Positions 16,102-50,123 of a stretch of 57,048 nt of DNA are shown here, piece after piece. Below the pieces are notes generated by a model. That model saw only the letters and a list, made by a program, of their open reading frames with translations. It did no database searches and was not told where the DNA came from. Positions within the stretch are counted from its first letter, which is position 1; each line of letters starts with the position of its first letter. The stretch is from NCBI GenBank assembly GCA_022565615.1, contig JAIUMM010000007.1:1-57048 (forward strand), in the 5' to 3' direction. This DNA is from Nanobdellota archaeon (GTDB lineage: Archaea > Nanobdellota > Nanobdellia > Woesearchaeales > UBA583). Both the position numbers and the translations under genes were made by a program.

Positions 16102-18723
16102 ATGAACAGATTAGATAGAGTGAAAATTACAAAAAGAATTGATTGGATTCAATATGGTATTTATTCTCCAAAAGAGATTGTAAAACAAAGTGTTGTAAAA
16201 GTAATTACTCCTGAAATTTATGATAAATATGGATTCCCTGTAGAAGGAGGATTAATGGATTTAAGAATGGGAGTACTTGAGCCAGGTTTAGTATGTAAAA
16301 CTGATAATATGGGTTATAAAGACTCAGAAGGTCACTTTGGACATTTAGAACTTGCAAGGCCAATTTTAAATGTTAATTTTATTGATGAAATTTCAAATGT
16401 ATTGCAATGTACATGTCAAGAATGTTCAAGAATTTTACTTCCAGATGAACAAATTCCTCAAAAAGTTCAAGATTTTAGAGAATATAGAAAATTACATGGA
16501 ATTGATAAATATGTAAAATTTTATGCAAAATTTTTGTCTCAAATTAAAAAAATTAAAACATGCCCTCATTGTGGAGCTAAACAAGAACAAATTAAACTTG
16601 ATAAATCCTCTGTCTTTGTATTTACACAAGGAGAGAAAAAAAGATTACTTACAACTGAGATTAGATTTAGATTTGAAAATATTATTGATGAAGATTTAGA
16701 AGTATTGAATTTACATCATGTAAGACCTGAGTGGATGCTTATGACTGTAATGTCAATTCCTCCAGTATCAATGCGTTCAACGATTACTCTTCAAACAGGA
16801 CAAAGAAGTGAAGATGATTTAACACACAAATTAACAGATATTGTAAGAACTAATCAAAGACTTCATGAACATTTATTAGTAGGAGTTCCAGAAGCAATTA
16901 TTGAAGATGTTTGGGATTTATTACAATATCACATCTCAACATATATGGATAATACTATTACAGGATTACCTCCAGCTAGACACAGAAATGGAGACACATT
17001 AAAATCAATTGCTGAGAGAATTAAAGGTAAAAAAGGAATTATTAGAAATAACTTAATGGGTAAACGTGTAAATTATTCAGCAAGAACTGTAATTTCACCA
17101 GATCCAAGATTAAAATTAAATGAAATTGGAGTACCCGTTCAAATTGCTAAAAAATTAACAATTCCTGAACCAGTTAATGAGCGAAATATTGAATATCTTA
17201 AAGAATTTGTAAAACAAGGACCTGAAGGATATCCTGGTGCAAATTATTTAATTACTAAAACAGGTGCAAGAAAGAGTATTTCAAGAGAAATTTTACCAAT
17301 CTTACTTGAAGAGATGGAACCAGGTTATATTGTTGAGAGACACTTAATTGATGGAGATAATGTTGTATTTAACAGACAACCTTCGTTGCACAAGTTATCA
17401 ATGATGGGTCATGTTGCAAAAGTATTACCAATTAAAACATTTGCAATTAATCCAGGTGTTTGTAAACCATATAATGCAGATTTTGATGGTGATGAAATGA
17501 ATATGCACATGCCACAAACTCTTGAAGCAAGACAAGAAATTGAGCAATTAATGGATGTAAAACATCAACTTATCTCACCAGCTTCAGGAGAAGCAGTAAT
17601 TGGATGTGTTCAAGATAGTATTGCAGGTTTGTATGTACTTACACAAGATGATTTTAAACTTAGTAAAGAAGATGCAGTTGAATTATTATTTTCAATTAGA
17701 TATAGAGAATATTCAAGAATTAAATTTAATAAAGAAGTTACTGGAAAAGAAATCTTCTCAGCAATTTTACCTCAGGACATTAGTTTTTTAGGTTCAAGTC
17801 AATATGGAGATGTAATTATTGAAGATGGACTCTTAAAAGAAGGAATTATTGATAAAAAAACAATTGGAGATGGAGGAGTAACTTTACTTAGACATTTACA
17901 TAATAATTATGGTCCAGATGTAACACTTAAAGTTGTAAGTTATATGTTTAATTTAGGAATTCAAGTACTTAGAAAACAAGGACTTACAGTTTCAATGGGA
18001 GATTTTGATATCCCTGATGAAATTCCAAAAGAAGTTGAAAAGATTAACACAAAGGTGTATAAAGAAATTGATTCAATTATTGAACAATATGAAAAAGGAA
18101 CTCTTCAAAGACTCACAGGTTTAACACTAAAACAAACTCGTGAAATTTATATTTTACAAAAATTAAACTCCATTCGTGATGAGAGTATGAAAGTTGTAAA
18201 ACAACATTTACCAAGAGATAGTGGAATTGCTATTATGGCTGACTCAGGAGCTAAAGGAAATGCTCTATCAACTATTCAAATGCACGCAGGAGTTGGGCAA
18301 CAATCATTAAGAGGACAGAGAATTTCAAGAGGATTTAATAATAGAACTCTCTCATGTTTTAAACCATTTGATGCATCACCAGCAGCTAGAGGATATATCT
18401 CATCAGCTCTTAGAATTGGACTTAAACCCTATGAAGTATTTTTTGGAAATATTACAGGAAGAGATGGTTTAATGGATACAGCTCTTAGAACTCCTAAAAC
18501 AGGATATCTATATAGAAGAATGGCATCAGCTATGCAAGATTTAATTGTTAAAAAAGATTTATCTGTTCAAGATGAAAATGGAACAATTGTACAATTTAAA
18601 TATGGTGATGATGCAATTGATGTATCAAAAACAACAGCTGGTAAATTTGATGTAAAAGCAATTATTAAAAATACATTATATGAAAAAAATACAAGTAAAA
18701 AAGCAGCAGAGGTGAAGGCATAA
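16102..18723 (+). CDS. rpoA1: DNA-directed RNA polymerase subunit A' (N-terminal part of the largest subunit)
   Basis: An 873-residue protein that holds the catalytic Mg site: NADFDGDEMNMH, with Asp 460, 462 and 464. Other landmarks are the zinc-binding CxxC pairs (CTCQECSR, CPHCGAK), the lid/rudder region KGIIRNNLMGKRVNYSARTV, and a bridge-helix and trigger-loop N-part (DTALRTPKTGYLYRR, MASAMQDL). The subunit ends at the usual A'/A'' split point. A GGAGGA SD site lies 12 nt before its ATG, which follows the rpoB' stop by 2 nt. Length matches archaeal A' (870-910). Confidence 0.98.
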   Translation: MNRLDRVKITKRIDWIQYGIYSPKEIVKQSVVKVITPEIYDKYGFPVEGGLMDLRMGVLEPGLVCKTDNMGYKDSEGHFGHLELARPILNVNFIDEISNVLQCTCQECSRILLPDEQIPQKVQDFREYRKLHGIDKYVKFYAKFLSQIKKIKTCPHCGAKQEQIKLDKSSVFVFTQGEKKRLLTTEIRFRFENIIDEDLEVLNLHHVRPEWMLMTVMSIPPVSMRSTITLQTGQRSEDDLTHKLTDIVRTNQRLHEHLLVGVPEAIIEDVWDLLQYHISTYMDNTITGLPPARHRNGDTLKSIAERIKGKKGIIRNNLMGKRVNYSARTVISPDPRLKLNEIGVPVQIAKKLTIPEPVNERNIEYLKEFVKQGPEGYPGANYLITKTGARKSISREILPILLEEMEPGYIVERHLIDGDNVVFNRQPSLHKLSMMGHVAKVLPIKTFAINPGVCKPYNADFDGDEMNMHMPQTLEARQEIEQLMDVKHQLISPASGEAVIGCVQDSIAGLYVLTQDDFKLSKEDAVELLFSIRYREYSRIKFNKEVTGKEIFSAILPQDISFLGSSQYGDVIIEDGLLKEGIIDKKTIGDGGVTLLRHLHNNYGPDVTLKVVSYMFNLGIQVLRKQGLTVSMGDFDIPDEIPKEVEKINTKVYKEIDSIIEQYEKGTLQRLTGLTLKQTREIYILQKLNSIRDESMKVVKQHLPRDSGIAIMADSGAKGNALSTIQMHAGVGQQSLRGQRISRGFNNRTLSCFKPFDASPAARGYISSALRIGLKPYEVFFGNITGRDGLMDTALRTPKTGYLYRRMASAMQDLIVKKDLSVQDENGTIVQFKYGDDAIDVSKTTAGKFDVKAIIKNTLYEKNTSKKAAEVKA

Positions 18724-18738
18724 ATTTAGCGTTAAAAA

Positions 18739-19911
18739 ATGACAATTCAAAAACAAATACAAACATTTATGGAAGAAAATCCAGAATTTCCAGAGTATAT
18801 TATTAAAGAAGTTGAACAAGAATTACCTAAAAATGTAACTTCTAAGCAAGTTGAAGAAGTTCTTGCAAATGTAAAGGATGAATATGAGAAATCTTTAATT
18901 TCTCCTTATGAAGCAATTGGAGTAATTACTGCTCAAAGTGTAGGAGAGAGAGCAACACAGATGACATTAAACACATTTCACTATGCAGGTGTTGCAACTG
19001 AGAGTGTTGAGGGTCTTCCAAGAATTATTGAGATTTTAGATGCTAAGAAAAATTTAGAAATGCCTTTAATGAGATTATATTTAACAAAAGGAAGTAAAGC
19101 AACTGAAGATGAAGTTAAAAAAGTTGCAATGCAAATTAAAGAAACAAAACTTGAAGAGTGTGTAAAAGAGACAAATATTGATGTTGCAAATACTAAAGTT
19201 GAAATTATTTTAGATACTAAAATGTTAAAAGAGTTTAAACTAGCATCAGAAGATATTGTAAGTTTACTTGATAAAAAAATTAAAAAATCAGCACAATGTG
19301 AAGGAAATTTACTTGTAGTTGAATTATCTCCAACATCAGGACTTAAAGATTTAATGGGAGCAAAAGCTCTTGCACTAAACTCAGTAGTTCAAGGTGTAAA
19401 AGGAATTCGTGATGTAACTATTATTAAAGAAGGAGAAGGAAAAGATAGTGAATTTGTAATTGTAACAAAAGGTTCAGCTATTAAACATGTAATGGCTATT
19501 GAAGAAATTGATAATTCAAGAATTTACTCAAATGATATTGATGTAGTAGGTTCAATGTTAGGAGTTGAAGCTGCTAGAAATGTAATTATTAAAGAATTAA
19601 TGGATGTAGTTGAATCACAAGGATTATCAATTAATGAAAGACACGTATTATTAATTGCTGATGTTATGACCTACACAGGTGAGCCAAGAGGTATGACAAG
19701 ATATGGAATTGTAGCTGATAAAGCAAATGTACTTACAAAAGCAAGTTTTGAAACAGCTCTAAAACATATTGGAAGAGGAGCAATGCTTAATGAGAGAAAT
19801 TATTTATCTTCAATTACTGAGAATGTTTTAACAAATCAACAAGTATATGTTGGAACAGGTTTTCCTAAAATTGCAGTTCAAAAACCTGAAATTCAAGTTA
19901 TTAAAAAATAA
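18739..19911 (+). CDS. rpoA2: DNA-directed RNA polymerase subunit A'' (C-terminal part of the largest subunit)
   Basis: A 390-residue protein. AIGVITAQSVGERATQMTLNTFH carries the trigger-loop/bridge region that completes the active centre, followed by PRIIEILDA and later LLIADVMTYTGEPRGMTRYG and FETALKHIG, all typical of A''. It follows rpoA' by 15 nt and is last in the operon. The usual archaeal downstream genes (L30e, NusA, S12, S7) are not here; the next genes are unrelated. The 3' end is tandemly repeated (TTATTAAAAAATAAC three times) over and past the stop codon. Confidence 0.97.
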   Translation: MTIQKQIQTFMEENPEFPEYIIKEVEQELPKNVTSKQVEEVLANVKDEYEKSLISPYEAIGVITAQSVGERATQMTLNTFHYAGVATESVEGLPRIIEILDAKKNLEMPLMRLYLTKGSKATEDEVKKVAMQIKETKLEECVKETNIDVANTKVEIILDTKMLKEFKLASEDIVSLLDKKIKKSAQCEGNLLVVELSPTSGLKDLMGAKALALNSVVQGVKGIRDVTIIKEGEGKDSEFVIVTKGSAIKHVMAIEEIDNSRIYSNDIDVVGSMLGVEAARNVIIKELMDVVESQGLSINERHVLLIADVMTYTGEPRGMTRYGIVADKANVLTKASFETALKHIGRGAMLNERNYLSSITENVLTNQQVYVGTGFPKIAVQKPEIQVIKK

Positions 19912-19943
19912 CTTATTAAAAAAATAACTTATTAAAAAATAAT
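19898..19943 (+). repeat. 15-16 bp tandem repeat over the rpoA'' stop codon
   Basis: Three consecutive copies of TTATTAAAAA(A)ATAA(C/T) start within the last codons of rpoA'' (IKK-stop) and continue into the spacer. The second copy has one additional A. Slippage or short duplication of the gene end is the simplest explanation. Confidence 0.85.
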
Positions 19944-20036
19944 TTATGGGAAATATTTTTTCAAATAATATATTTTCGTATTATTACAATTACAACAATA
20001 TTTTTTAAAGAGTTAACAATTAAAAATAAATATAAG

Positions 20037-24257: not shown

Positions 24258-24908
24258 TTATCTTCTATAATAAAAGCTCAACTCAAATTCAAATCTTCCT
24301 TGATTTGTTGGAATATTTTGAAATTCACTTGAAACCCTTGAGTATCCTCTTCTTAAATAATAATTTTCTTCACTAATATTTAAAGATAAGTCATATTCTT
24401 GTAAATTATCCATTGTTACATTTAAATGTGAATATCTAATATCATTACTTGGAATTACTCTTAGAGTAAATGCTTTTGGACTATGAAGAGGTTCATTATC
24501 AGTAGTTCCATTAAACAATAAATGAAGACTAGAATTCATTAAATTTAAAAAAGTTGAGCATACTTCTAATTCAAAAGAAGGAGAAGTACTCTCACACGTA
24601 ATATTGTGACTTCTTTGAGTCAAACCAGTATTATCTACACATAAATTAAGAAGTCTTACACCATCAAGAGTCCTAGTTCTATAACAATCAACTCTTAGAG
24701 TTTTTAAATGTTCTATCATACTTTGTGCTATAATTTCATTTTCACTAATTAAAATTTCATTTTGAGATTGAACAGTATATACACTTCTAAATTCAGAATA
24801 TAGAAAAAATCCAAGTACAAGAATTACAAAAAATAGCATAATTCCAAAAATTTCTCCTTGAGATTTTGAAGAAAATTTGAATTTTATTTTTTTATTATTT
24901 AAATTCAT
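24258..24908 (-). CDS. Pilin-like or envelope protein with one N-terminal membrane helix
   Basis: A 216-residue protein. A basic, serine-rich N-terminus ending SSKSQGE leads into one long hydrophobic helix (residues about 20-40). A mostly beta-like outside domain with many Asn, Ser and Thr residues, four Cys and NxS/T sequons follows. The basic-polar-Q-x-E then hydrophobic pattern recalls archaeal class III prepilin signals, but the cleavage motif is not convincing and the tail is longer than most pilins. It may be a pseudopilin, or an anchored surface protein. It follows the AAA+ operon in orientation but has a 53-nt gap, and it is divergent from the transglutaminase gene. Confidence 0.55.
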   Translation of the reverse strand: MNLNNKKIKFKFSSKSQGEIFGIMLFFVILVLGFFLYSEFRSVYTVQSQNEILISENEIIAQSMIEHLKTLRVDCYRTRTLDGVRLLNLCVDNTGLTQRSHNITCESTSPSFELEVCSTFLNLMNSSLHLLFNGTTDNEPLHSPKAFTLRVIPSNDIRYSHLNVTMDNLQEYDLSLNISEENYYLRRGYSRVSSEFQNIPTNQGRFEFELSFYYRR

Positions 24909-24963: not shown

Positions 24964-27324
24964 ATGTTAATTAATACTAAATTAAACAGTAATTTGCTTT
25001 TTACTAGACAACAAATAAACTTCTTTTTAAAATTTATTTTAGTATTCTTCCTTCTCTTTTCTTCAATTCAATATACATTTTCACAATCACAAGATTCAAT
25101 TTATTCAAGTATATTAGAGTTAGAAATTACACATAATTTGGGAGTTGAATTATCAAAAAATTCTCCAAGTGCTATATTAAATCAATTACTTATAAATTCT
25201 CATTACGTATTACTTAATATAAGTCCGTATCAAGTAATTAATAATATTCAAATAGCTCCTTCTTCAATTGAAAATGAAGTTCTTACAAAAAATAATGAAG
25301 AAGAAAATTTATTTAGACAATATACTATTATTAATGAGAATGTACAAGATTCAACTAGAATAGATATTCAAAATAAATATATATTAACTTCAACACCCTT
25401 TTTCCCAAAAATAAATTCAAAGCAAACATATCCTCTTAGTAGTTCTCAAATTCAAGAGCATTCAAAATATTTACAATTTAGCGATATGATAAATACTAAT
25501 TCACAGCTTCAAGAAAAAGCGTTTGAACTTGCACAAGGAGAAGATGACGTATTTGTAATTGCGACAAAAGTAGCTAATTGGTTAGAACAAGAAATTGAGT
25601 ATGATTTATCAACTATTTTTGAAAATCCAAATCAAAATGCAGTTGAAATATTTAACTCTAAAAGAGGAGTTTGTAAAGAATTATCTATAATATATATCTC
25701 AATGCTCAGATCGTTACAAATTCCTGCTAGAATGGCTCTAGGTTATTCATATACAACATCTCAAGAGATAGTTGATTTAGTGGGGGATAATTGGGGAGGG
25801 CATGCATGGGTTGAAGTATTAATAGGAGATGAGTGGGTTCCTTTTGATTTAGCATATAGACAATATGGATATGTAGGTTCAACTCATTTGTTGTTTCAAA
25901 GAAGTGCTGATATAAATGAGTTAGGAATTTCAGTTGAAATGAGCTCCTTTGAATATGAATTTGTTCAAAATTCATTAACTTCTTCAATGAATTTTAATGT
26001 GTTAGAACAAATAGAATCTTATCTTTTAAATGAGATTTCTATTCAAGCAATTCTTACTTCACAAGAAGATGAATATCAAAGTGGTTCATATGTATTTCTT
26101 GAAGCTACTATTACAAATCCTCATAACCATTATATTGCTCAAGAGCTACAATTAATATTTCCTCAAGAGTTAATTGAAATAACTCCTTCAACACAGCTAA
26201 TAACTCTCACCCCAAACTCACAAACTCATATAGGGTACATATTACAAATTCCAGAAGATTTCAATAATTATATTTTCCCAATTTCATTATATTCAATTTC
26301 AAATTTAAGACAAACTTCAGTAGGGGAGTTTAGAATTACATCAAGACAAAGAGGAGTTATGCATACAAAAGAATATGTTGAATTACAGTTTGAAGAGTTA
26401 AAAATAAATAATAATCAAAACAATAATGAAAATACAAATAATCAATATAATAACCAATACCAGTTTATAGATAATAAAGAAGAAGATATTAAAGAGGAAA
26501 GTAAAGAAGAATCATTAGAAAACTTATTAATAACTCTTACTAATACAATAGATACTATAGTAAAAGAGGGATTAACTCAATTAAATTCAAATGAAATTTG
26601 TAATTATAGTTTTATAATTGAAGAACTAGATAATAAAAATAATTTAGAAGAGGAGAAACTTTATTTAGAGTGTGATTTAAACTTTTTATTTAGTGATGCT
26701 ATACAAAACATTGAAGAGGAATTATCAATTCAAGAACTTGAAAATATTGTACAAGACTATGAGTTTAAACTTGAACTCTGCTCTACAGGTTGTACTTCAA
26801 AAATTGTAAGATTAAATGAGTTAATAGAACTTAGAAATAATGAGGTTTTAATTATTAATCAACTTGGACAAATAGAGAATCAACTAATTTTAAAGACTCC
26901 AACTTCATTATACTCAAGTTCAATATTGAGAATAAATTCAAATTCAAAACCAATTAATAAAGAAATTGATAATTTTGCTCAAATTGATATTCAAATTGAA
27001 ATGAATCAAAGAGGAAATTTAGAGTTATTAAATCTTGATTATGAAGAGTTTGATGAAAATATTATTTTAGTAATTCAAATTGTTGATATGTAATTAACTG
27101 AAGTATTTCAGACTGATTTTTTAACTAATGAGATACATCAAGTTGAACTAGATTTAAAACCTAGAAATTATAAATTTAATTTATACTTATTTCATTATAA
27201 TATGTTAATTGAAGAAGAAATTAGAGAAATAAAAATAACTCAAGAATCAATTCAAGACACATTGTATTTTACAATAAGTAATTTTTTCACATCATTATTT
27301 TCAAAAATTACTTCTCTATTTTAA
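24964..27324 (+). pseudogene. Secreted transglutaminase-like protein, interrupted by an in-frame TAA
   Basis: The first ORF (24964-27093, 709 aa) has an N-terminal signal or anchor helix (residues about 18-38). A transglutaminase-like protease fold has Cys237 in SKRGVCKE, His280 in NWGGHAWVEV and Asp295 in WVPFDLAY. A long region of Ig-like or beta strands and Asn/Glu-rich stretches follows. Immediately after DM the TAA at 27091-27093 is followed in the same frame by 76 more codons ending at 27324, with a plausible beta strand pattern and a hydrophobic C-terminus. The gene is probably a nonsense-truncated one; readthrough or a sequencing error are alternatives. Confidence 0.6.
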
Positions 27325-36654: not shown

Positions 36655-37839
36655 TTATTCTTGAATAATTTCAAGAACAGCTGTTGTTAATTTATGATCT
36701 AATGATTTTTCATTTAACTTTGAAATAAAGTATAATGATACAATATGATCTTTAACATTTGTTTTAGCTCTTTGTGGATTTTTAACATCACTCATTCCTC
36801 TTAAGTATTTATCTAATTCAAAGAAGACTTCAGGAGTCATCCATCTAAGGGTTTCAGTATAATATCTAAGTGTATTTCTAGTCTCTTCAATACCTACTCT
36901 TTTAATTAAATACTCCATCCAACTTAAAATAATTACTAATGCATTAGTATTATTTTTCAAGATTGTTAATGGAACTGCGTCAGCTGCTGCTGCTTCAATG
37001 TTTAATGTATCAAGCTCAAGGAGACTTTGTGAAATTTTAGAAGTATTTTCTTTTTGAGTAGATTTGTTCCATTCATTTTCAACTTCTTCACTATTTCTTT
37101 TTAATTCACTAAGAGGAGGAACTCCTTCAATTTTTATTTCTTCTCTAAATGGTTTTTCTTCAAAAGAATTTTTAGTATCAAACTCAAATTCATCATTATT
37201 TGGTTTCATCTCTAAAGACATTCCATTACCATTATCGCTCAATGAGGAGATTTCAATAGGTTCAGTAGTTGGCTCTTGAGCGTTTTCAATTTCAATAGAT
37301 GAAGGTTCATTATTCATTTTAGGCATATTTTCTTTTGAAACAAATGGGTTGTATTGGTTATTAATTAATTCATATAATGATAAAAATTGAGCCATATTTG
37401 AATCAATTTCTTTAAATTTAGAATCATTTTCTTTTCCTTTTTTATCTAAATTATCAACTCTATTGTTTAAACTACTTACAGTATTTTCAAGTTTTTTAAT
37501 GTCAGTTACTAAACCTGTCAATCTCTCATTAGTTTCTTTCATTTCTTTATGCATTTTCATTAAGACTTCTGAAACTGATTTTTTATTACCATTAGAATTA
37601 TTCACAGATGTGCTGTTGTTCATATTTCCTTGGTTAGTAGGAGCAGAATTTTGAGTATCTTGTTGAGAGTTACTATTAACGGGAATTTGACTTGTTGTAC
37701 TATTATTATTTTGATTAATTTGATTTTGTGAACTCACCTCTGTATTTTGAGAATTATTTACAGGAACAGCAGTCGTTGTCTTAGACTCTTTCTTTTTCGT
37801 TTTACCACCTAATAAAAATTGGATAAATCCTAATGCCAT
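36655..37839 (-). CDS. Archaellum accessory protein ArlC/D/E-like
   Basis: A 394-residue protein. Residues about 90-150 form a coiled coil with a Asn/Gln/Ser/Thr-rich N-terminus. FLSLYELINNQYNPFV near residue 155 is the FlaC-type segment, and the last 100 residues (VPLTILKNN, IILSWMEYLIKRVG, LRYYTETLRWMTPEVFFELDKYLRGM) match the FlaD/E domain. ArlC, D and E link chemotaxis signals or the cytoplasmic ring to the ArlH/ArlI motor in Euryarchaeota. It is the last of four minus-strand genes; ArlH itself lies 7 kb away, so the archaellum genes are split. Confidence 0.82.
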   Translation of the reverse strand: MALGFIQFLLGGKTKKKESKTTTAVPVNNSQNTEVSSQNQINQNNNSTTSQIPVNSNSQQDTQNSAPTNQGNMNNSTSVNNSNGNKKSVSEVLMKMHKEMKETNERLTGLVTDIKKLENTVSSLNNRVDNLDKKGKENDSKFKEIDSNMAQFLSLYELINNQYNPFVSKENMPKMNNEPSSIEIENAQEPTTEPIEISSLSDNGNGMSLEMKPNNDEFEFDTKNSFEEKPFREEIKIEGVPPLSELKRNSEEVENEWNKSTQKENTSKISQSLLELDTLNIEAAAADAVPLTILKNNTNALVIILSWMEYLIKRVGIEETRNTLRYYTETLRWMTPEVFFELDKYLRGMSDVKNPQRAKTNVKDHIVSLYFISKLNEKSLDHKLTTAVLEIIQE

Positions 37840-37901
37840 TGTTAATTTTTTAAAGAAGAAAAATATTATATATCTATGTCACTACTAAAAAATTTCTAAA
37901 T

Positions 37902-38633
37902 TTAATGTTCTTCTAATCTTTTTAGTGCAGCATCAATTCTAGAAATTCTATTCTCAACTTTGGAAGGAAGTTTTGAAGTTTGTATTGAATTTTTATTAAA
38001 ATTTATTGGTTTTTTGGAATCATAATTAATTTTATTCTCAAAGATTTCTTCAGAAACATTGGGATTATTTTTAATTTCTTTAATTAATTGAATTTGAAAT
38101 TTAAAATTTTCTTGAATTAAGTTTTGAGTATTAAAAAATTTGTTATCAATTTCTTCAAGATTAGTTAATATATTGCTCTGTTCATTATGCAACAATGTTT
38201 TAATGTGGTCATTTGATGCATTTAAATTATCTATCTCTTCATTAATTTTATTCATTTTCATATGAAATATTGAAAATTCATTTTTCATTTCTTGTATGTG
38301 TTGAGTTCTTGAAAGTATTGATTCTTTTAAAACTTTAGAAAATGATGATTCAATTCTTTCAAAGAATTTTTCCTGCTCCACATTAATTTTTTTATTTACA
38401 AATGATTCGATATCACTAAATAAATTTCTTCTAAGTAGGGAAATTTCATCTCTTACATCTTGAATTAAATTTAGTAGTTGAAATGCATCAGAATTAATTT
38501 CTAAAGAATTTGGAGTATTAAATTGTTTAATATTGCTTAATTGGGGAAGTTTTAAATTTGAATTTTTAATAACTGATTCAAGTTCAATATTTAATTTTTT
38601 TATTTCATCTTTAATTTTTTTATTGTCTATCAT
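37902..38633 (-). CDS. Coiled-coil protein in the Arl-like cluster
   Basis: A 243-residue protein made mostly of heptad-like helices (EIKKLNIELESVIKN, LLNLIQDVRDEISLLRRNLFSDIESFVNKK, IHMKMNKINEEIDNLN). No enzyme motif, signal peptide or membrane helix is visible. The gene is 62 nt upstream of the ArlC/D/E-like gene and 11 nt after the next upstream one, so it is in the same operon. A structural role in the cytoplasmic ring or cap beneath the archaellum is plausible but not shown. Confidence 0.65.
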   Translation of the reverse strand: MIDNKKIKDEIKKLNIELESVIKNSNLKLPQLSNIKQFNTPNSLEINSDAFQLLNLIQDVRDEISLLRRNLFSDIESFVNKKINVEQEKFFERIESSFSKVLKESILSRTQHIQEMKNEFSIFHMKMNKINEEIDNLNASNDHIKTLLHNEQSNILTNLEEIDNKFFNTQNLIQENFKFQIQLIKEIKNNPNVSEEIFENKINYDSKKPINFNKNSIQTSKLPSKVENRISRIDAALKRLEEH

Positions 38634-38644
38634 TTTTCATATTA

Positions 38645-38992
38645 TTAAAATTCAGGAATTGGGGGATTTTTTTCACTATTGTCTTCTTCGGTATTTTCAG
38701 ATTCTTCATTCTTTTTTTCTTTTGATTGAACATAGCTAAGTATGGTATCTATTTTTTCTTCTAATTTATCGATTCTAGAATATATATTTAATTTATTAGA
38801 ATCTTCATAACTTGTCATATTTGAATTAAATGCAAATACAATTTTATTATATATTTCTTCAATTAATTTATTTGTATCTACATCATTTTTATTTCCTTTT
38901 AAACTTTCGACTAATAGTAATTGTTTGAGTTTTAAAGATTCAATTTCTTTTATTAGTTCAACATCATTACTTAATTTTTCTTCAACTTTCAT
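38645..38992 (-). CDS. Small coiled-coil protein in the Arl-like cluster
   Basis: A 115-residue acidic protein with two coiled-coil stretches (IKEIESLKLKQLLLVESL and IYSRIDKLEEKIDTILSYVQ), joined by an Asn/Ser-containing stretch, and a Glu/Asp-rich C-terminal tail ending PPIPEF. No transmembrane segment. Located 46 nt after the membrane protein gene and 11 nt before the longer coiled-coil gene. It resembles those neighbours in style, suggesting a shared complex. Confidence 0.62.
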   Translation of the reverse strand: MKVEEKLSNDVELIKEIESLKLKQLLLVESLKGNKNDVDTNKLIEEIYNKIVFAFNSNMTSYEDSNKLNIYSRIDKLEEKIDTILSYVQSKEKKNEESENTEEDNSEKNPPIPEF

Positions 38993-44846: not shown

Positions 44847-45548
44847 TTAACTATATCCTCCAATTTCAATAATGAGTCCTTCTTTTGGCTCAACTCTAAA
44901 TGCAATTTTATCTAAATAAATCCCCATTGGGCGTTTAAATCTTTTAACATTTAAAACTCTTGTAGTCTCACCTGCAAAATTTCCAAGATTGATTTGAATA
45001 AACATATCTGCCATATTTCTTACAAGCATTAAAAATTTTTCATCAATTTGAGAAGGATCAACTGTAAAAATTACTGTTTTATTTAAATTGTTTAATTTTC
45101 TAAAAAAATTCATTATCATATAATATGCTTCTTCTCCAGCATTTTTTTTCACTAATAAAAATGAGAGTGTATCAAATATGATAACTTCTTTTTCAAATAA
45201 TTTAGGTGTTTTTATAATTTTGTCAATAAAGTCTTCTTCAAATTTAACTGTTCCTAAAAAAGGAACCATAGTAATGAAAAGTAATCTTTGATATAATAAA
45301 TCATTTCTAATAGAATAATTTAAGGAGTCCATTTGTTTGATAAAATCAAGAGTATTTAATTCAGTACTAATATATGTGACTTGTGTTTGATTCTTCATAA
45401 GAGAGTAAATAAATCTTTGACAAAGTAAGCTTTTTCCAGCTCCATCTACTCCTTCAAACAATATTAGACTATTTTTGGGAATTCCTCCTCCAAAATATCT
45501 ATTTAGTTCATCTCTTTCAAGATCAATTGAAAAATAATCTTCACTCAT
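44847..45548 (-). CDS. arlH: ArlH-like ATPase of the archaellum motor
   Basis: A 233-residue RecA/KaiC-type ATPase. GVDGAGKSLLCQRF (33-46) is the Walker A, VIIFDTLSFLL (123-133) the Walker B region, and ELNRYFGGGIPKNSLILFEG the family start; YISTE and QMDSLNYSI match ArlH positions. ArlH binds the ArlI ATPase and sits below the archaellum platform. ArlI and ArlJ are not in the window. It is divergent from the exported cassette starting at 45730. Other KaiC-like ATPases are possible, but an ArlC/D/E-like protein at 36.6 kb supports the ArlH call. Confidence 0.8.
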   Translation of the reverse strand: MSEDYFSIDLERDELNRYFGGGIPKNSLILFEGVDGAGKSLLCQRFIYSLMKNQTQVTYISTELNTLDFIKQMDSLNYSIRNDLLYQRLLFITMVPFLGTVKFEEDFIDKIIKTPKLFEKEVIIFDTLSFLLVKKNAGEEAYYMIMNFFRKLNNLNKTVIFTVDPSQIDEKFLMLVRNMADMFIQINLGNFAGETTRVLNVKRFKRPMGIYLDKIAFRVEPKEGLIIEIGGYS

Positions 45549-45729: not shown

Positions 45730-48471
45730 ATGTTTAAATTAATAGTTGAATTAGTGCACAAATTTTCATATACAATTTTGATTTTGTGTATATTTTTATT
45801 CTCTAGTTCAAGTTTTTTATTTGCTCAAGAGTCATGCGCTATTGATTTTTCAAATTTGGAATATTTTGTTTTTTCAGGAGGAGATTTGTACTTGGATGAA
45901 TTGGATTCTAATTTATATGTTATAAAAAGTAATCTTTCTTCACACCCTTTAAGAATTATTTTATCTACTCAAACTTCAATTTATGAGGGTTGTTATAATC
46001 AAAATGATTTAGGTATGAGAGTTTCAGGTACAATTTCTTTACCTTCTAATTTTGAAATTGAAACAGTATCTGAAGGGAATTATTTAGTAAGTTGGATTTT
46101 TGATATTCAAGAAGATTTAGTATTTCAAAATGAGTATCAATCATTTCAATTTCAAAGTTTAAGTGATTCATCTATGCAAGATATTTTAACTCTAAGAGTT
46201 GATAGAGAACTTCCTGAAATTTCTTTAATTAATGTTTTAAGGGGAAGTGAAGAAATTGATATTAATTTTCCAGTTTTAAATAGTCAATTAAAAAATGATG
46301 ATGTGGTGTCAGTTATATTTAGAATTACAGATGATGTTGCTCTTGAAGATATCAGAATTAGAAACTTAAGAGGAGCAGAGATAATATTGAATCAAACGAC
46401 TCAAAATAGTCGAGATGAGTATGAATTTGAAGTTCAAGTAAGATTGGACACAGCCCCTTTAGAATTTCAAGTTATAGCATCAGATAAATTTAATACATTT
46501 GAAATTAAAGATTTTTCATTAGATTTTGATTCTTTTGAACCAACCATAGATTCTTTAGAGATTATTGCATATGAAATTACGAGCAATTTACAACATATTA
46601 TAATTGGAGAAATTACTCTAAGAGATGATTTTGAAATTGTTGCAGATGACGTTACATTATTCTCAAGAAATCAAGATTCTAATTTAGAAATTAATTATCA
46701 AATTATTAGTTGTAATACTGATGATGAGAGGGAATCTAATTTATTGTATACTCTTTGTACGTTTAGGAGTCAACCAATACAAGTTGAGAGTACATTTACA
46801 ACTAATTTCTCTATAAGAGTTTTTGATATGGTAAGAAATGAAATTATCTCAAATTTTGTAAGAACTATTGAAATAAATAATGAAGGTCCTGAAATTCATA
46901 CTTTTGAATTGAGAAATCCAATTAATAATACTAATATTTTATCTTCACTAAATGCAGAGAATTCTAAAATAATTTTGGAGTACTCCAATGATTTATCTTC
47001 ACTATATTCATCTTCTCAATCTTCTAATTCTCAAAGAGTTACAATTCAAAGAAATTTTGAACCATTTATAGATATTTCTGAATCTTTGTGTGAAGAAATT
47101 AATTCAAGAACTAATAGACATAGATGTATATGGGAAGTTAATCCTTTAGATGTTGCAGGTTATGAAGAATTTAATATTTCAATTCAATTAAGAGACATTA
47201 CAGGGAGTGCTAATCGAGAGGAGATTTCAATTATTGTAAATGATATTGTTCCAAATATCACAAATTTAAGGATTGCTGAGAGAGGGAATGAGAGAAATTC
47301 AATTTTAGAATCTTATGAAAATGTAAGAATTGAATTTTTTGTGAAAAATGTAGATGAATTAGAAGAGTTTGAAACTAGGATTAATGGTTCAAATATTATT
47401 TTTAGAAATAGTCCTGACACTATTAATTTTATGTGTCAATATGTAAAAGAGAGTGAACTTGGAAATGAAGGACAGATATGTTTTTCAGATGAATTTGAAT
47501 TAAATAGAGGATTTGATGGTGATAGGACTGAAGATTTGAGAATTATTGTTACAAATGATGCTGGAAATAGTGATTTAGCTATTAAAGAAGTTAAAATTTT
47601 TAAAATATTTGAAGGTGAGTCAATTGATTACTTTGATTTAGATTTTGTACAATTACTCACTCCTCTAAATAGAAGAGTTGTAAAAGAGCAGGGAATGGAT
47701 GTATATCACCAATTTGGATTAAAACCTAAAAATAATAATGAAGAATTTAAGATTATTAGTGTTCAACTATTGGGTATGGGTGTAAGTTCAGATTCACAAA
47801 GAGAAGATGTGAGATTAAATTTTTTTGAATTACAAAATCAAACTTCTCAAGGAGTTGTTTTAGGAGATAATAGAAATTTTTTTCTAAAGTCATTTATGCC
47901 TCAGTTAATGTCTGCTTATGAAATGGAAGGGGAAACTCAATCAACAGTTGTACTCTCAATTGTAAAAACTGATATTGATACAGTTTATAAAGATGAAAAT
48001 GTAACAATTGTACTCCCTATTGAATTTTATGATATGCCTCGTGATTTAAATTCAAATATTGCACTTGCACAGAAAATATTAGATGATATTAATTCAGTTA
48101 ATGAAAATGTTAGAAATGGAAGGGGGCTTTTAGATATATATATGATGTATTATAATATTTGTGGAGTGTATAATGGGATTAAAGGTACAATTCAATCATT
48201 GTCTCAATCCTGGAATGCTATTAGTCTTGCTTTTGGAAGTTTTATTCCTGGTTCTCAAGCAATTGACACTGCTACTCAAGGAGCGGCTCAAGGAGAGTCT
48301 ATGCTTGGAAATATGGATAATATTATGGGTAAAATTTGTATGCTTGCATCTTGTAGTTTTTCTCAAGAATTAATTGGGGGAGCTTTAAATTCAGTAACAG
48401 GAGATATGCAAATTGGAGATTACTTAACGGGTCAACGTTCATTTTTGGGTAATATGATGTGTAGTCCTTAA
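45730..48471 (+). CDS. Large exported Ig-like repeat protein with a Cys-containing C-terminal region
   Basis: A 913-residue protein. The track start at 45691 is TTG; the ATG at 45730 opens MFKLIVELVHKF then a hydrophobic signal ending FLFAQE, giving secretion. The body is a string of beta-sandwich (Ig or Big-like) domains with the rhythm of strands PEIHTFELRNPINNTN..., NITNLRIAERGNERNSIL..., and so on. The last 130 residues are helical and Gly/Cys containing (YYNICGVYNG, GKICMLASCSF, MMCSP). It heads a three-gene plus-strand cassette diverging from arlH. Surface-layer, archaellum-anchor or adhesive roles are possible. Confidence 0.7.
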   Translation: MFKLIVELVHKFSYTILILCIFLFSSSSFLFAQESCAIDFSNLEYFVFSGGDLYLDELDSNLYVIKSNLSSHPLRIILSTQTSIYEGCYNQNDLGMRVSGTISLPSNFEIETVSEGNYLVSWIFDIQEDLVFQNEYQSFQFQSLSDSSMQDILTLRVDRELPEISLINVLRGSEEIDINFPVLNSQLKNDDVVSVIFRITDDVALEDIRIRNLRGAEIILNQTTQNSRDEYEFEVQVRLDTAPLEFQVIASDKFNTFEIKDFSLDFDSFEPTIDSLEIIAYEITSNLQHIIIGEITLRDDFEIVADDVTLFSRNQDSNLEINYQIISCNTDDERESNLLYTLCTFRSQPIQVESTFTTNFSIRVFDMVRNEIISNFVRTIEINNEGPEIHTFELRNPINNTNILSSLNAENSKIILEYSNDLSSLYSSSQSSNSQRVTIQRNFEPFIDISESLCEEINSRTNRHRCIWEVNPLDVAGYEEFNISIQLRDITGSANREEISIIVNDIVPNITNLRIAERGNERNSILESYENVRIEFFVKNVDELEEFETRINGSNIIFRNSPDTINFMCQYVKESELGNEGQICFSDEFELNRGFDGDRTEDLRIIVTNDAGNSDLAIKEVKIFKIFEGESIDYFDLDFVQLLTPLNRRVVKEQGMDVYHQFGLKPKNNNEEFKIISVQLLGMGVSSDSQREDVRLNFFELQNQTSQGVVLGDNRNFFLKSFMPQLMSAYEMEGETQSTVVLSIVKTDIDTVYKDENVTIVLPIEFYDMPRDLNSNIALAQKILDDINSVNENVRNGRGLLDIYMMYYNICGVYNGIKGTIQSLSQSWNAISLAFGSFIPGSQAIDTATQGAAQGESMLGNMDNIMGKICMLASCSFSQELIGGALNSVTGDMQIGDYLTGQRSFLGNMMCSP

Positions 48472-48501
48472 ATAAAAAATTAGAGTTAAAAAAATATAAA
48501 A

Positions 48502-49254
48502 ATGATACAATTAAATATAACAAATATGATTTCAAAGACTTTGATTTATTTTTTGATAATTAGTATACTTACATTCTCTTTTTCTTATGCTGATGGTCCT
48601 GGAACTCCTCCTGGTTCAATTTCAGATCCTGTTGTTGTACCTCCTTCTTTGTCAACGGGTCAAACTCCTATTGGAGGTTCTCTTTCAGTTTCAGAGTGTC
48701 AAGGATTATTTGCAGGAGGATTTGATCCTCAAGATAATTTAATGGCTTCAGTAATGGGATTGTGTTTATCGGGAATTTTGGTTAATTTACATAGATTGGA
48801 ACAAAATGAGTGTGAGAAAATCATTTGTGAATATAATGCAGCAAGACAAGGTATTTCTCCAATTGCATGTGCTAAACAGAGTGCATATAATACTTGTTTA
48901 ATTACAGGTCAAGGGTTTGATGTGGTAGAAGGTGTTTTAATAGGGGCTTTGAGACAAAATATAAGGAGGATTCTTGAAGACCCTTTAGGTTTTGCAATTG
49001 ATAGAGTTAGGGGAGTTTTTGAGAGACAAGTAAGTATGTGTAGTCCTAATTGTTCTGATCCTTTTTCAAAAGTTTCTGCAATTGGTCTTGCCGTGTTAGA
49101 AATTCCAAATGCTATTAATAGTATTAAAAGTTTGATTAATCAGCTACAATCTCTTGGGCAATCTCAAGAGAGTGCATGTGAGAGACTTGAAGACATTAGA
49201 GAGGAATTAGAACAATTAATTGCTCAGCATGAAGCTGCACAAGCAAGGAGGTAG
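48502..49254 (+). CDS. Secreted Cys-rich helical protein
   Basis: A 250-residue protein. A hydrophobic signal (about 12-28, LIYFLIISILTFSFSYADG) may start at the ATG at 48502 or the nearer one at 48526. After a Gly/Pro/Ser-rich linker the mature part has at least ten Cys, some in close pairs (ECEKIICEYN, CSPNCSDP), implying disulfides outside the cell. A C-terminal coiled-coil helix (ACERLEDIREELEQLIAQHE) ends the protein. The gene follows the Ig-like gene by 30 nt and precedes the membrane gene by 11 nt. No family is recognised. Confidence 0.68.
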   Translation: MIQLNITNMISKTLIYFLIISILTFSFSYADGPGTPPGSISDPVVVPPSLSTGQTPIGGSLSVSECQGLFAGGFDPQDNLMASVMGLCLSGILVNLHRLEQNECEKIICEYNAARQGISPIACAKQSAYNTCLITGQGFDVVEGVLIGALRQNIRRILEDPLGFAIDRVRGVFERQVSMCSPNCSDPFSKVSAIGLAVLEIPNAINSIKSLINQLQSLGQSQESACERLEDIREELEQLIAQHEAAQARR

Positions 49255-49265
49255 GAGGTAATTAA

Positions 49266-50123
49266 ATGACTTCAAGTTTAATTGATTTTTTATCTCAAGC
49301 CTCTTTAGTTGATATTTTAAAAGTATTTATTGATGCAAATTATTTTGAAGTATTATTTCCATTTTTACTACTTTTTGCACTATATTTTCATGTTCTTCAA
49401 AAAGTACTTGGAAGAAAAGGTTCTAAATTATTTTCAAAGTCCGCAAGTACAATTATTGCAGTTATTGTTTCATTTTATTCAGTTGCATTTAAATTTCCAA
49501 CGGGGTACTCTGTTGCTGATATGATGATGTTACTATTTCCAAATATTTCAGTAATTTCAATTGGTATTTTGTGCTTGTATGTAATTGGTTCAATTTTAGG
49601 GTTTGATTTTTTTAAAAATATGTTTAGAAAAGACATTAGTGCTTATATGATATTTTTTTTTGGAGCATTAGGGCTTGGTTCTGTTATATTTTATGGAGGG
49701 ATTATAATTGGAATTTGGAATTTAGATCCTTTTAGTCAAGCAGATTGGATTTCAGTTGTTGTAGCTATTTCATTTTTAATACTTGGAGTTGTGTTTTTAT
49801 TAATTGGTTGGTTTGCTTTAGCATTATTATTATTATATGTTTCAGTGTCATTTATTTATAACATGGGTGAAGTTGGAATTGGAAGTTTATTGTTTGATCC
49901 GTACATGTTTATTTTATTTATCTTTATAGGACTTATGAGTTGGTTATTTAAAGATGAGAAAAATGAGGAACAAATGCTTGAAGAGAGCATGAATAATACT
50001 CAAAGAGCAATGTCAAATATTGAACAAAATTATGGTGGAAAACCTCCTCAAAGAGGAGAGGATTTACTATATGATTTAAGTAGTCAAGGATTTGAAAATA
50101 GTAGAAAAAAATTAAGAAGATAA
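49266..50123 (+). CDS. Multi-pass membrane protein with cytoplasmic tail, exported-cassette partner
   Basis: A 285-residue protein with six or more hydrophobic helices (FLLLFALYFHVLQKVL, IISVIVSFYSV-like segment, VISIGILCLYVIGSIL, FFFGALGLGSVIFYGGIII, VVVAISFLILGVVFLLIGWFALALLLLY, FILFIFIGLMSWLF), then a hydrophilic tail rich in Asn, Glu and Gln. A GGAGGT SD site lies 6 nt before its ATG, which suits an internal operon gene. No T2SF/ArlJ-type repeat could be recognised. It may be the membrane partner of the two exported proteins before it. Confidence 0.68.
   Translation: MTSSLIDFLSQASLVDILKVFIDANYFEVLFPFLLLFALYFHVLQKVLGRKGSKLFSKSASTIIAVIVSFYSVAFKFPTGYSVADMMMLLFPNISVISIGILCLYVIGSILGFDFFKNMFRKDISAYMIFFFGALGLGSVIFYGGIIIGIWNLDPFSQADWISVVVAISFLILGVVFLLIGWFALALLLLYVSVSFIYNMGEVGIGSLLFDPYMFILFIFIGLMSWLFKDEKNEEQMLEESMNNTQRAMSNIEQNYGGKPPQRGEDLLYDLSSQGFENSRKKLRR

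Follow-up and report, generated by a model that had tools for sequence, protein, structure and literature searches.

The three genes that diverge from arlH in a Nanobdellota archaeon (DPANN; GCA_022565615.1, contig JAIUMM010000007.1) appear to join a split surface protein to a membrane protein of pilus-type machinery. On profile evidence, a single surface protein, called B here, is divided between ORF1 and ORF2, and ORF3 is a long member of a class-wide family of 5-TM proteins usually encoded near pilus-type motors. The reading that best accounts for the locus, with a probability of about 0.55, takes ORF1 and ORF2 together as a secreted, disulfide-rich Ig-repeat surface or adhesin protein, and ORF3 as a relocated membrane subunit of a type IV pilus (T4P)/archaellum-like assembly machine. 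The window, meaning the whole stretch of DNA that was analysed, is 57,048 nt long, and the features discussed below are as follows.

36655-37839, minus strand: ArlC/D/E-type archaellum protein (Pfam Arch_fla_DE 69.6 bits, cut-off 21; FlaC_arch 35.3, cut-off 27.8)
37902-38633, minus strand: coilA, cytoplasmic coil protein (HMM built without the window, E 5.7e-7)
38645-38992, minus strand: coilB, cytoplasmic coil protein (HMM built without the window, E 6.4e-15)
44847-45548, minus strand: arlH (flaH), archaellum KaiC-type ATPase, divergent neighbour 181 bp from ORF1
45730-48471, plus strand: ORF1, ATG start, 913 aa, signal peptide; predicted Ig-repeat N-terminal half of split B
48502-49254, plus strand: ORF2, 250 aa, 9 Cys, own signal peptide; Cys-rich helical C-terminal half of split B
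49247-49260, plus strand: strong Shine-Dalgarno site of ORF3, AGGAGGTAGGAGGT, overlapping the ORF2 stop codon (direct sequence reading)
49266-50123, plus strand: ORF3, 285 aa, 7 hydrophobic segments and a charged C-tail; long paralogue of the class-wide 5-TM family

The original prediction of three same-strand genes with short gaps is confirmed in its coordinates, with 30 nt between ORF1 and ORF2 and 11 nt between ORF2 and ORF3, and its naming of the divergent neighbour as arlH was also correct (NCBIfam 227.7 bits, cut-off 215). All three ORFs have significant homologues elsewhere and are therefore genuine genes rather than chance frames; an alternative start for ORF1, a TTG 39 nt further upstream, is possible. 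Pfam and NCBIfam scans of ORF1-ORF3 gave no match of note and none to archaellum models. ORF3 had been described as a multi-pass protein with an internal Shine-Dalgarno site, and the multi-pass character stands. Because the site lies just ahead of ORF3, partly over the stop codon of ORF2, it is better assigned to the ORF2/ORF3 junction, where the overlap suggests translational coupling.

ORF1 and ORF2 as halves of one surface protein

Against a profile of fused B, ORF1 aligns to positions 180-834 (E 2.6e-28) and ORF2, collinear with it, to positions 868-1033 (E 5.9e-27). When 69 sampled genomes of the same order were searched with an ORF2 model, 53 had this module within a large open frame, of about 1,000-1,900 residues in most matches. 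In the B loci that were read, the protein is a single exported chain of 1,000-1,300 residues, in which Ig-like repeats are fused to a helical, Cys-rich C-terminus with many invariant cysteines. The split ORF1-ORF2 pair is present in all six genomes of the genus (in G002 the ORF1 counterpart is a C-terminal fragment at a contig end), and each half begins with a hydrophobic segment wherever both starts are visible. As read from the sequences, the split is a division of the gene at the level of the genus and not a frameshift.

The early description of ORF1 as a secreted beta-sandwich protein holds for its length and signal peptide, while its Ig-like part is suggested through the family rather than by ORF1 itself: of 17 fused relatives, 9 have low-scoring matches to Big_3_3 (Ig-like) (best E 6e-5; one score shown is 18.1 against a cut-off of 27), and a Pfam scan of ORF1 gave no Big domain. 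Searches of the PDB with the B profile returned weak matches to an S-layer protein and to surface and Ig-binding proteins. ORF2 is Cys-rich and secreted as predicted, and the expected cysteine conservation was found, with 7 Cys invariant across three congeneric sequences; its proposed C-terminal coiled coil is consistent with a low-confidence helix prediction (AlphaFold2 of ORF2 alone, shallow alignment, pLDDT 42). The two halves together would make up a surface protein that is secreted, built of Ig repeats and stabilised by disulfides; it is a candidate adhesin or fibre component, perhaps for host contact. No relatives of ORF2 or ORF3 were found on viral contigs.

Across the order, B belongs to a recurrent gene series. 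A gene called A lies directly upstream of fused B in 17 of 19 loci and encodes a protein of 670-800 residues whose N-terminus (K/R-G-Q-hydrophobic) is type IV prepilin-like, which points to a pilin-like protein. The same class of N-terminus occurs in some pilin-like genes of the ORF3 cluster described below. A further secreted protein, C, usually follows B, and ten loci also contain D, a polytopic protein of 250-320 residues; representatives of A, C and D had no confident Pfam match. ORF3 was considered as a homologue of D and rejected (hhalign profile-profile probability 1%). In the present genome the pilin-like A is not directly upstream of ORF1, and relatives of A are found on contigs C1, C2 and C4. 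On C2 (L137:4148-7769), a short A-family protein, a 697-aa exported protein and a 5-TM membrane protein form a trio whose layout parallels ORF1-ORF3.

The split pair in congeners is followed by another secreted protein or by a MATCAP-type peptidase. In two congeners a protein of the MATCAP family (microtubule-associated tyrosine carboxypeptidase) lies directly behind split B (L041:4469-5569 and L042:1378-2487), and similar-looking soluble genes of 380-391 aa occur near split B in other congeners.

Several other large exported or surface-protein-like products were seen in this genome. A 1,683-aa exported protein on contig C21 (L096:5240-10291), with pilin-like genes nearby (18132-20000), was at first suggested as the true fused B, but the profile behind that suggestion had included the C21 protein as a seed. 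An independent model gives it E 5.7e-7 over a short stretch only, and it is therefore a distant paralogue, with a distant ORF2-like Cys module. On contig C10 (L174, 1-20000), giant frames that resemble surface proteins, with lengths of at least 4,412 and 2,251 residues, are weakly similar to the Ig part of B. In the window itself, an exported protein of 709 aa that has a transglutaminase core domain (24964-27093, plus strand; Pfam 81.7 bits) is divergent from a pilin-like protein with an SKSQ-hydrophobic N-terminus (24258-24908, minus strand).

ORF3 and the pilus-type motor clusters

A model of the long ORF3 form built from congeners without ORF3 matches it with E 6.3e-84, and a model that combines ORF3 with its congeneric relatives has matches in 259 of 281 genomes searched within the class. 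The signature of this 5-TM family is LPFLLVFTIVFAILQK; in the loci read, the family is usually represented by two or three proteins in tandem, each of about 190 residues. Of 10 class loci, 9 have a T2SSE-type (type IV pilus-type) ATPase within a few kilobases of the family members, and genes for two small cytoplasmic proteins often separate the 5-TM genes from it. AlphaFold2 modelling of ORF3 from seven alignment rows gave low confidence (pLDDT 56). A further family member is encoded on contig 8 of this genome (L175:6772-7311), flanked by two small genes. In several genomes of one genus (G055, G097, G102, G106, G145, G174 and G182; family f46), ORF3-family matches contain in-frame TGA, TAA or TAG stops, perhaps because the matches run across adjacent genes, or through decay.

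In four congeners a direct ORF3 counterpart lies with a lipoprotein gene and a shorter paralogue. Where the contig extends further, in three of the four, the cluster also contains five or six pilin-like genes, an ArlI-paralogous ATPase (ATPaseB) and a TadC/ArlJ platform split into two genes; in the fourth, the contig ends before the motor part. The first pilin passes the archaellin/pilin N-terminal model TIGR02537 (27.8 bits, cut-off 20), ATPaseB is archaellum FlaI-like (E 2e-129, under the equivalog cut-off), and the platform proteins match T2SSF above its cut-off. The suggestion that the trio belongs to an unrecognised surface apparatus thus survives in part: its exported and membrane proteins do belong to unrecognised families, and ORF3 is now tied to T4P/archaellum-type machinery through this congeneric cluster. 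ORF3 would be a membrane part of such an assembly machine, with A and B as possible cargo or partners.

In the window, the locus of ORF3 itself contains neither a secretion ATPase nor TadC/T2SSF, and no ATPaseB/TadC/pilin cluster of the congeneric type was found in this assembly, which is 92% complete; at that completeness, loss of the motor cluster is likely but not proven. Only three T2SSE ATPases are present and none is orthologous to ATPaseB. One of these, in an ATPase/TadC pair at 54.6 kb on contig C3, was examined as an orthologue of the ATPaseB cluster and set aside: all six genomes have their own copy of the pair besides (62-64% identical), and the C3 ATPase is separated from ATPaseB in the tree (AU p 0.03). 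On C3, the ATPase at L023:9720-12023 is of the class-wide T4P-like type, with tree support of 100/100.

The accessory genes of the machine are scattered here. ORF3 lies behind ORF2, the short paralogue and lipoprotein are on contig 3, and the coil proteins are in the window near the ArlC/D/E gene; in G004 and G005, the counterparts of coilA and coilB directly precede the pilin/ATPaseB/TadC/ORF3 cluster. The run at 36655-38992 (minus strand), comprising the ArlC/D/E-type protein and the two coil proteins, illustrates that archaellum/T4P-accessory genes are dispersed rather than clustered in this genome. The archaellum set found consists of ArlH, ArlC/D/E, ArlI and ArlJ, the ArlI motor ATPase (687.8 bits, cut-off 550) being on contig C16, away from ORF1-ORF3. 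In this smaller genome ORF3 may have moved into the B operon once the motor cluster had been lost or displaced, and it is probably linked to B by translational coupling.

Alternative readings of the locus

A serious rival, on the improbable side but well short of negligible, is that the B operon and a relocated ORF3 are chance neighbours that do not work together, their arrangement having become fixed when a small genome was rearranged. The split pair is neither followed by ORF3 nor divergent from arlH in any of the five congeners. Their neighbourhoods without the trio or the arlH link make both specific to this genome among those examined; the linkage claimed by the original prediction is therefore absent from these congeners, although its separate parts do exist. 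This uniqueness of the trio, and the dispersal of the machine genes over C3, C16, C8, C21 and the window, are what one would expect of chance neighbours. The tightness of the locus argues the other way: ORF1 and ORF2 are a close pair in all six genomes and ORF3 follows directly here, while the 11-nt gap and the Shine-Dalgarno site over the ORF2 stop codon suggest co-translation. The joint reading of a surface protein with a relocated machine subunit must itself carry the restriction of B-ORF3 adjacency to this genome, the lack here of a motor cluster of the congeneric type, the low confidence of the ORF2 and ORF3 models and a pilin-likeness of A that is seen at its N-terminus and has no Pfam match behind it.

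A structural role of S-layer type for ORF1 and ORF2, with ORF3 as a separate membrane protein in the same envelope, is unlikely. Such a role would agree with the Ig-like repeats and with the weak similarity, at profile level, between B and the Deinococcus HPI surface-layer protein (E 6e-4), but B is largely restricted to the order and paired with the pilin-like A, and the ORF3 family is found with secretion ATPases.

Least probable is a dedicated three-gene secretion/adhesion system around ArlH, in which ORF3 would act as the channel, ORF1/2 would be the effector or adhesin that is secreted, and ArlH the regulator; the divergent arlH at 181 bp, the exported products and the same-strand operon would fit it, but the neighbourhoods largely refute it, since the arlH-ORF1 link and the trio are unconserved in five congeners, and in four of these arlH lies on a different contig from the B pair, adjoining ArlI/ArlJ or within its own ArlCE/F/H cluster. 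The trio and arlH therefore do not form one conserved apparatus as had been proposed: ORF1 and ORF2 together are a single protein in split form, which other genomes of the order usually encode as a fusion, and ORF1-ORF3, being absent from congeneric arl clusters, are not archaellum components.

Relation to known systems

Archaeal T4P systems combine a VirB11/PilB-type ATPase and a TadC/ArlJ platform with class III signal-peptide pilins and additional secreted Ig-like/S-layer-like and membrane proteins (Makarova, Koonin & Albers 2016, PMC4858521), a general plan shared by the ORF3-type loci. Where these loci differ is in their cytoplasmic coil proteins and in the 5-TM members of the ORF3 family that occur in tandem; neither group has a Pfam name. 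The same study could not identify the cognate pilins of one nanoarchaeal ATPase. The archaellum (ArlC-J) is also similar, through the ArlH, ArlC/D/E, ArlI and ArlJ of this genome and through ATPaseB, an ArlI relative. In contrast to the archaellum, congeneric ATPaseB falls under the FlaI equivalog cut-off, ArlJ/TadC is split into two genes, and the cluster has a lipoprotein and two multi-TM proteins besides.

In the DPANN 'dark-matter' T4P islands, signal-peptide proteins of unknown families beside TadC and an ATPase were read as diverse pilins (Makarova, Wolf & Koonin 2019, PMC6393860, Fig. 2A); by description, the fused or split B, the A-B pairing and the class-wide 5-TM family, described here from sequence, may be distinct from these. 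The arCOG01314-associated predicted secretion system (Makarova et al. 2015, PMC5898192) resembles ORF1-ORF3 in its predicted extracellular Ig-like/S-layer-like and polytopic membrane proteins; its marks, a vWA protein and a MoxR-type AAA+ ATPase, were not among the Pfam-scanned neighbours in the window. The Thermococcales Ig-domain module (PMC8416519) is described as a large Ig-domain protein with partner genes downstream, and as hypervariable; on that description, B differs in its conserved Cys pattern and in having a pilin-like gene beside it. None of the literature searched, coverage of which was partial, contained the B family in fused or split form, the pairing of B with A, or the 5-TM family of the class, which is weak evidence of novelty.

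A broader and more doubtful proposal is that DPANN archaea of this order build a dedicated contact fibre in which the giant pilin-like A is combined with the Ig protein B, rich in disulfides, and which is assembled by a pilus-type motor with a membrane platform that includes ORF3 and its 5-TM relatives; this would be a variant of the archaeal type IV filament absent from the literature searched. For the question of how DPANN archaea make contact with their hosts and hold on to them, three unannotated, widely conserved families (A, B and 5-TM) and the order of their genes are set out here. Found in more than 90% of the genomes sampled from the class, and mostly next to pilus-type motors in the loci read, the 5-TM family is thus a testable candidate for core lineage-specific surface machinery. 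The trio itself is no conserved system, yet it links a widespread, unstudied surface protein to pilus-type machinery.
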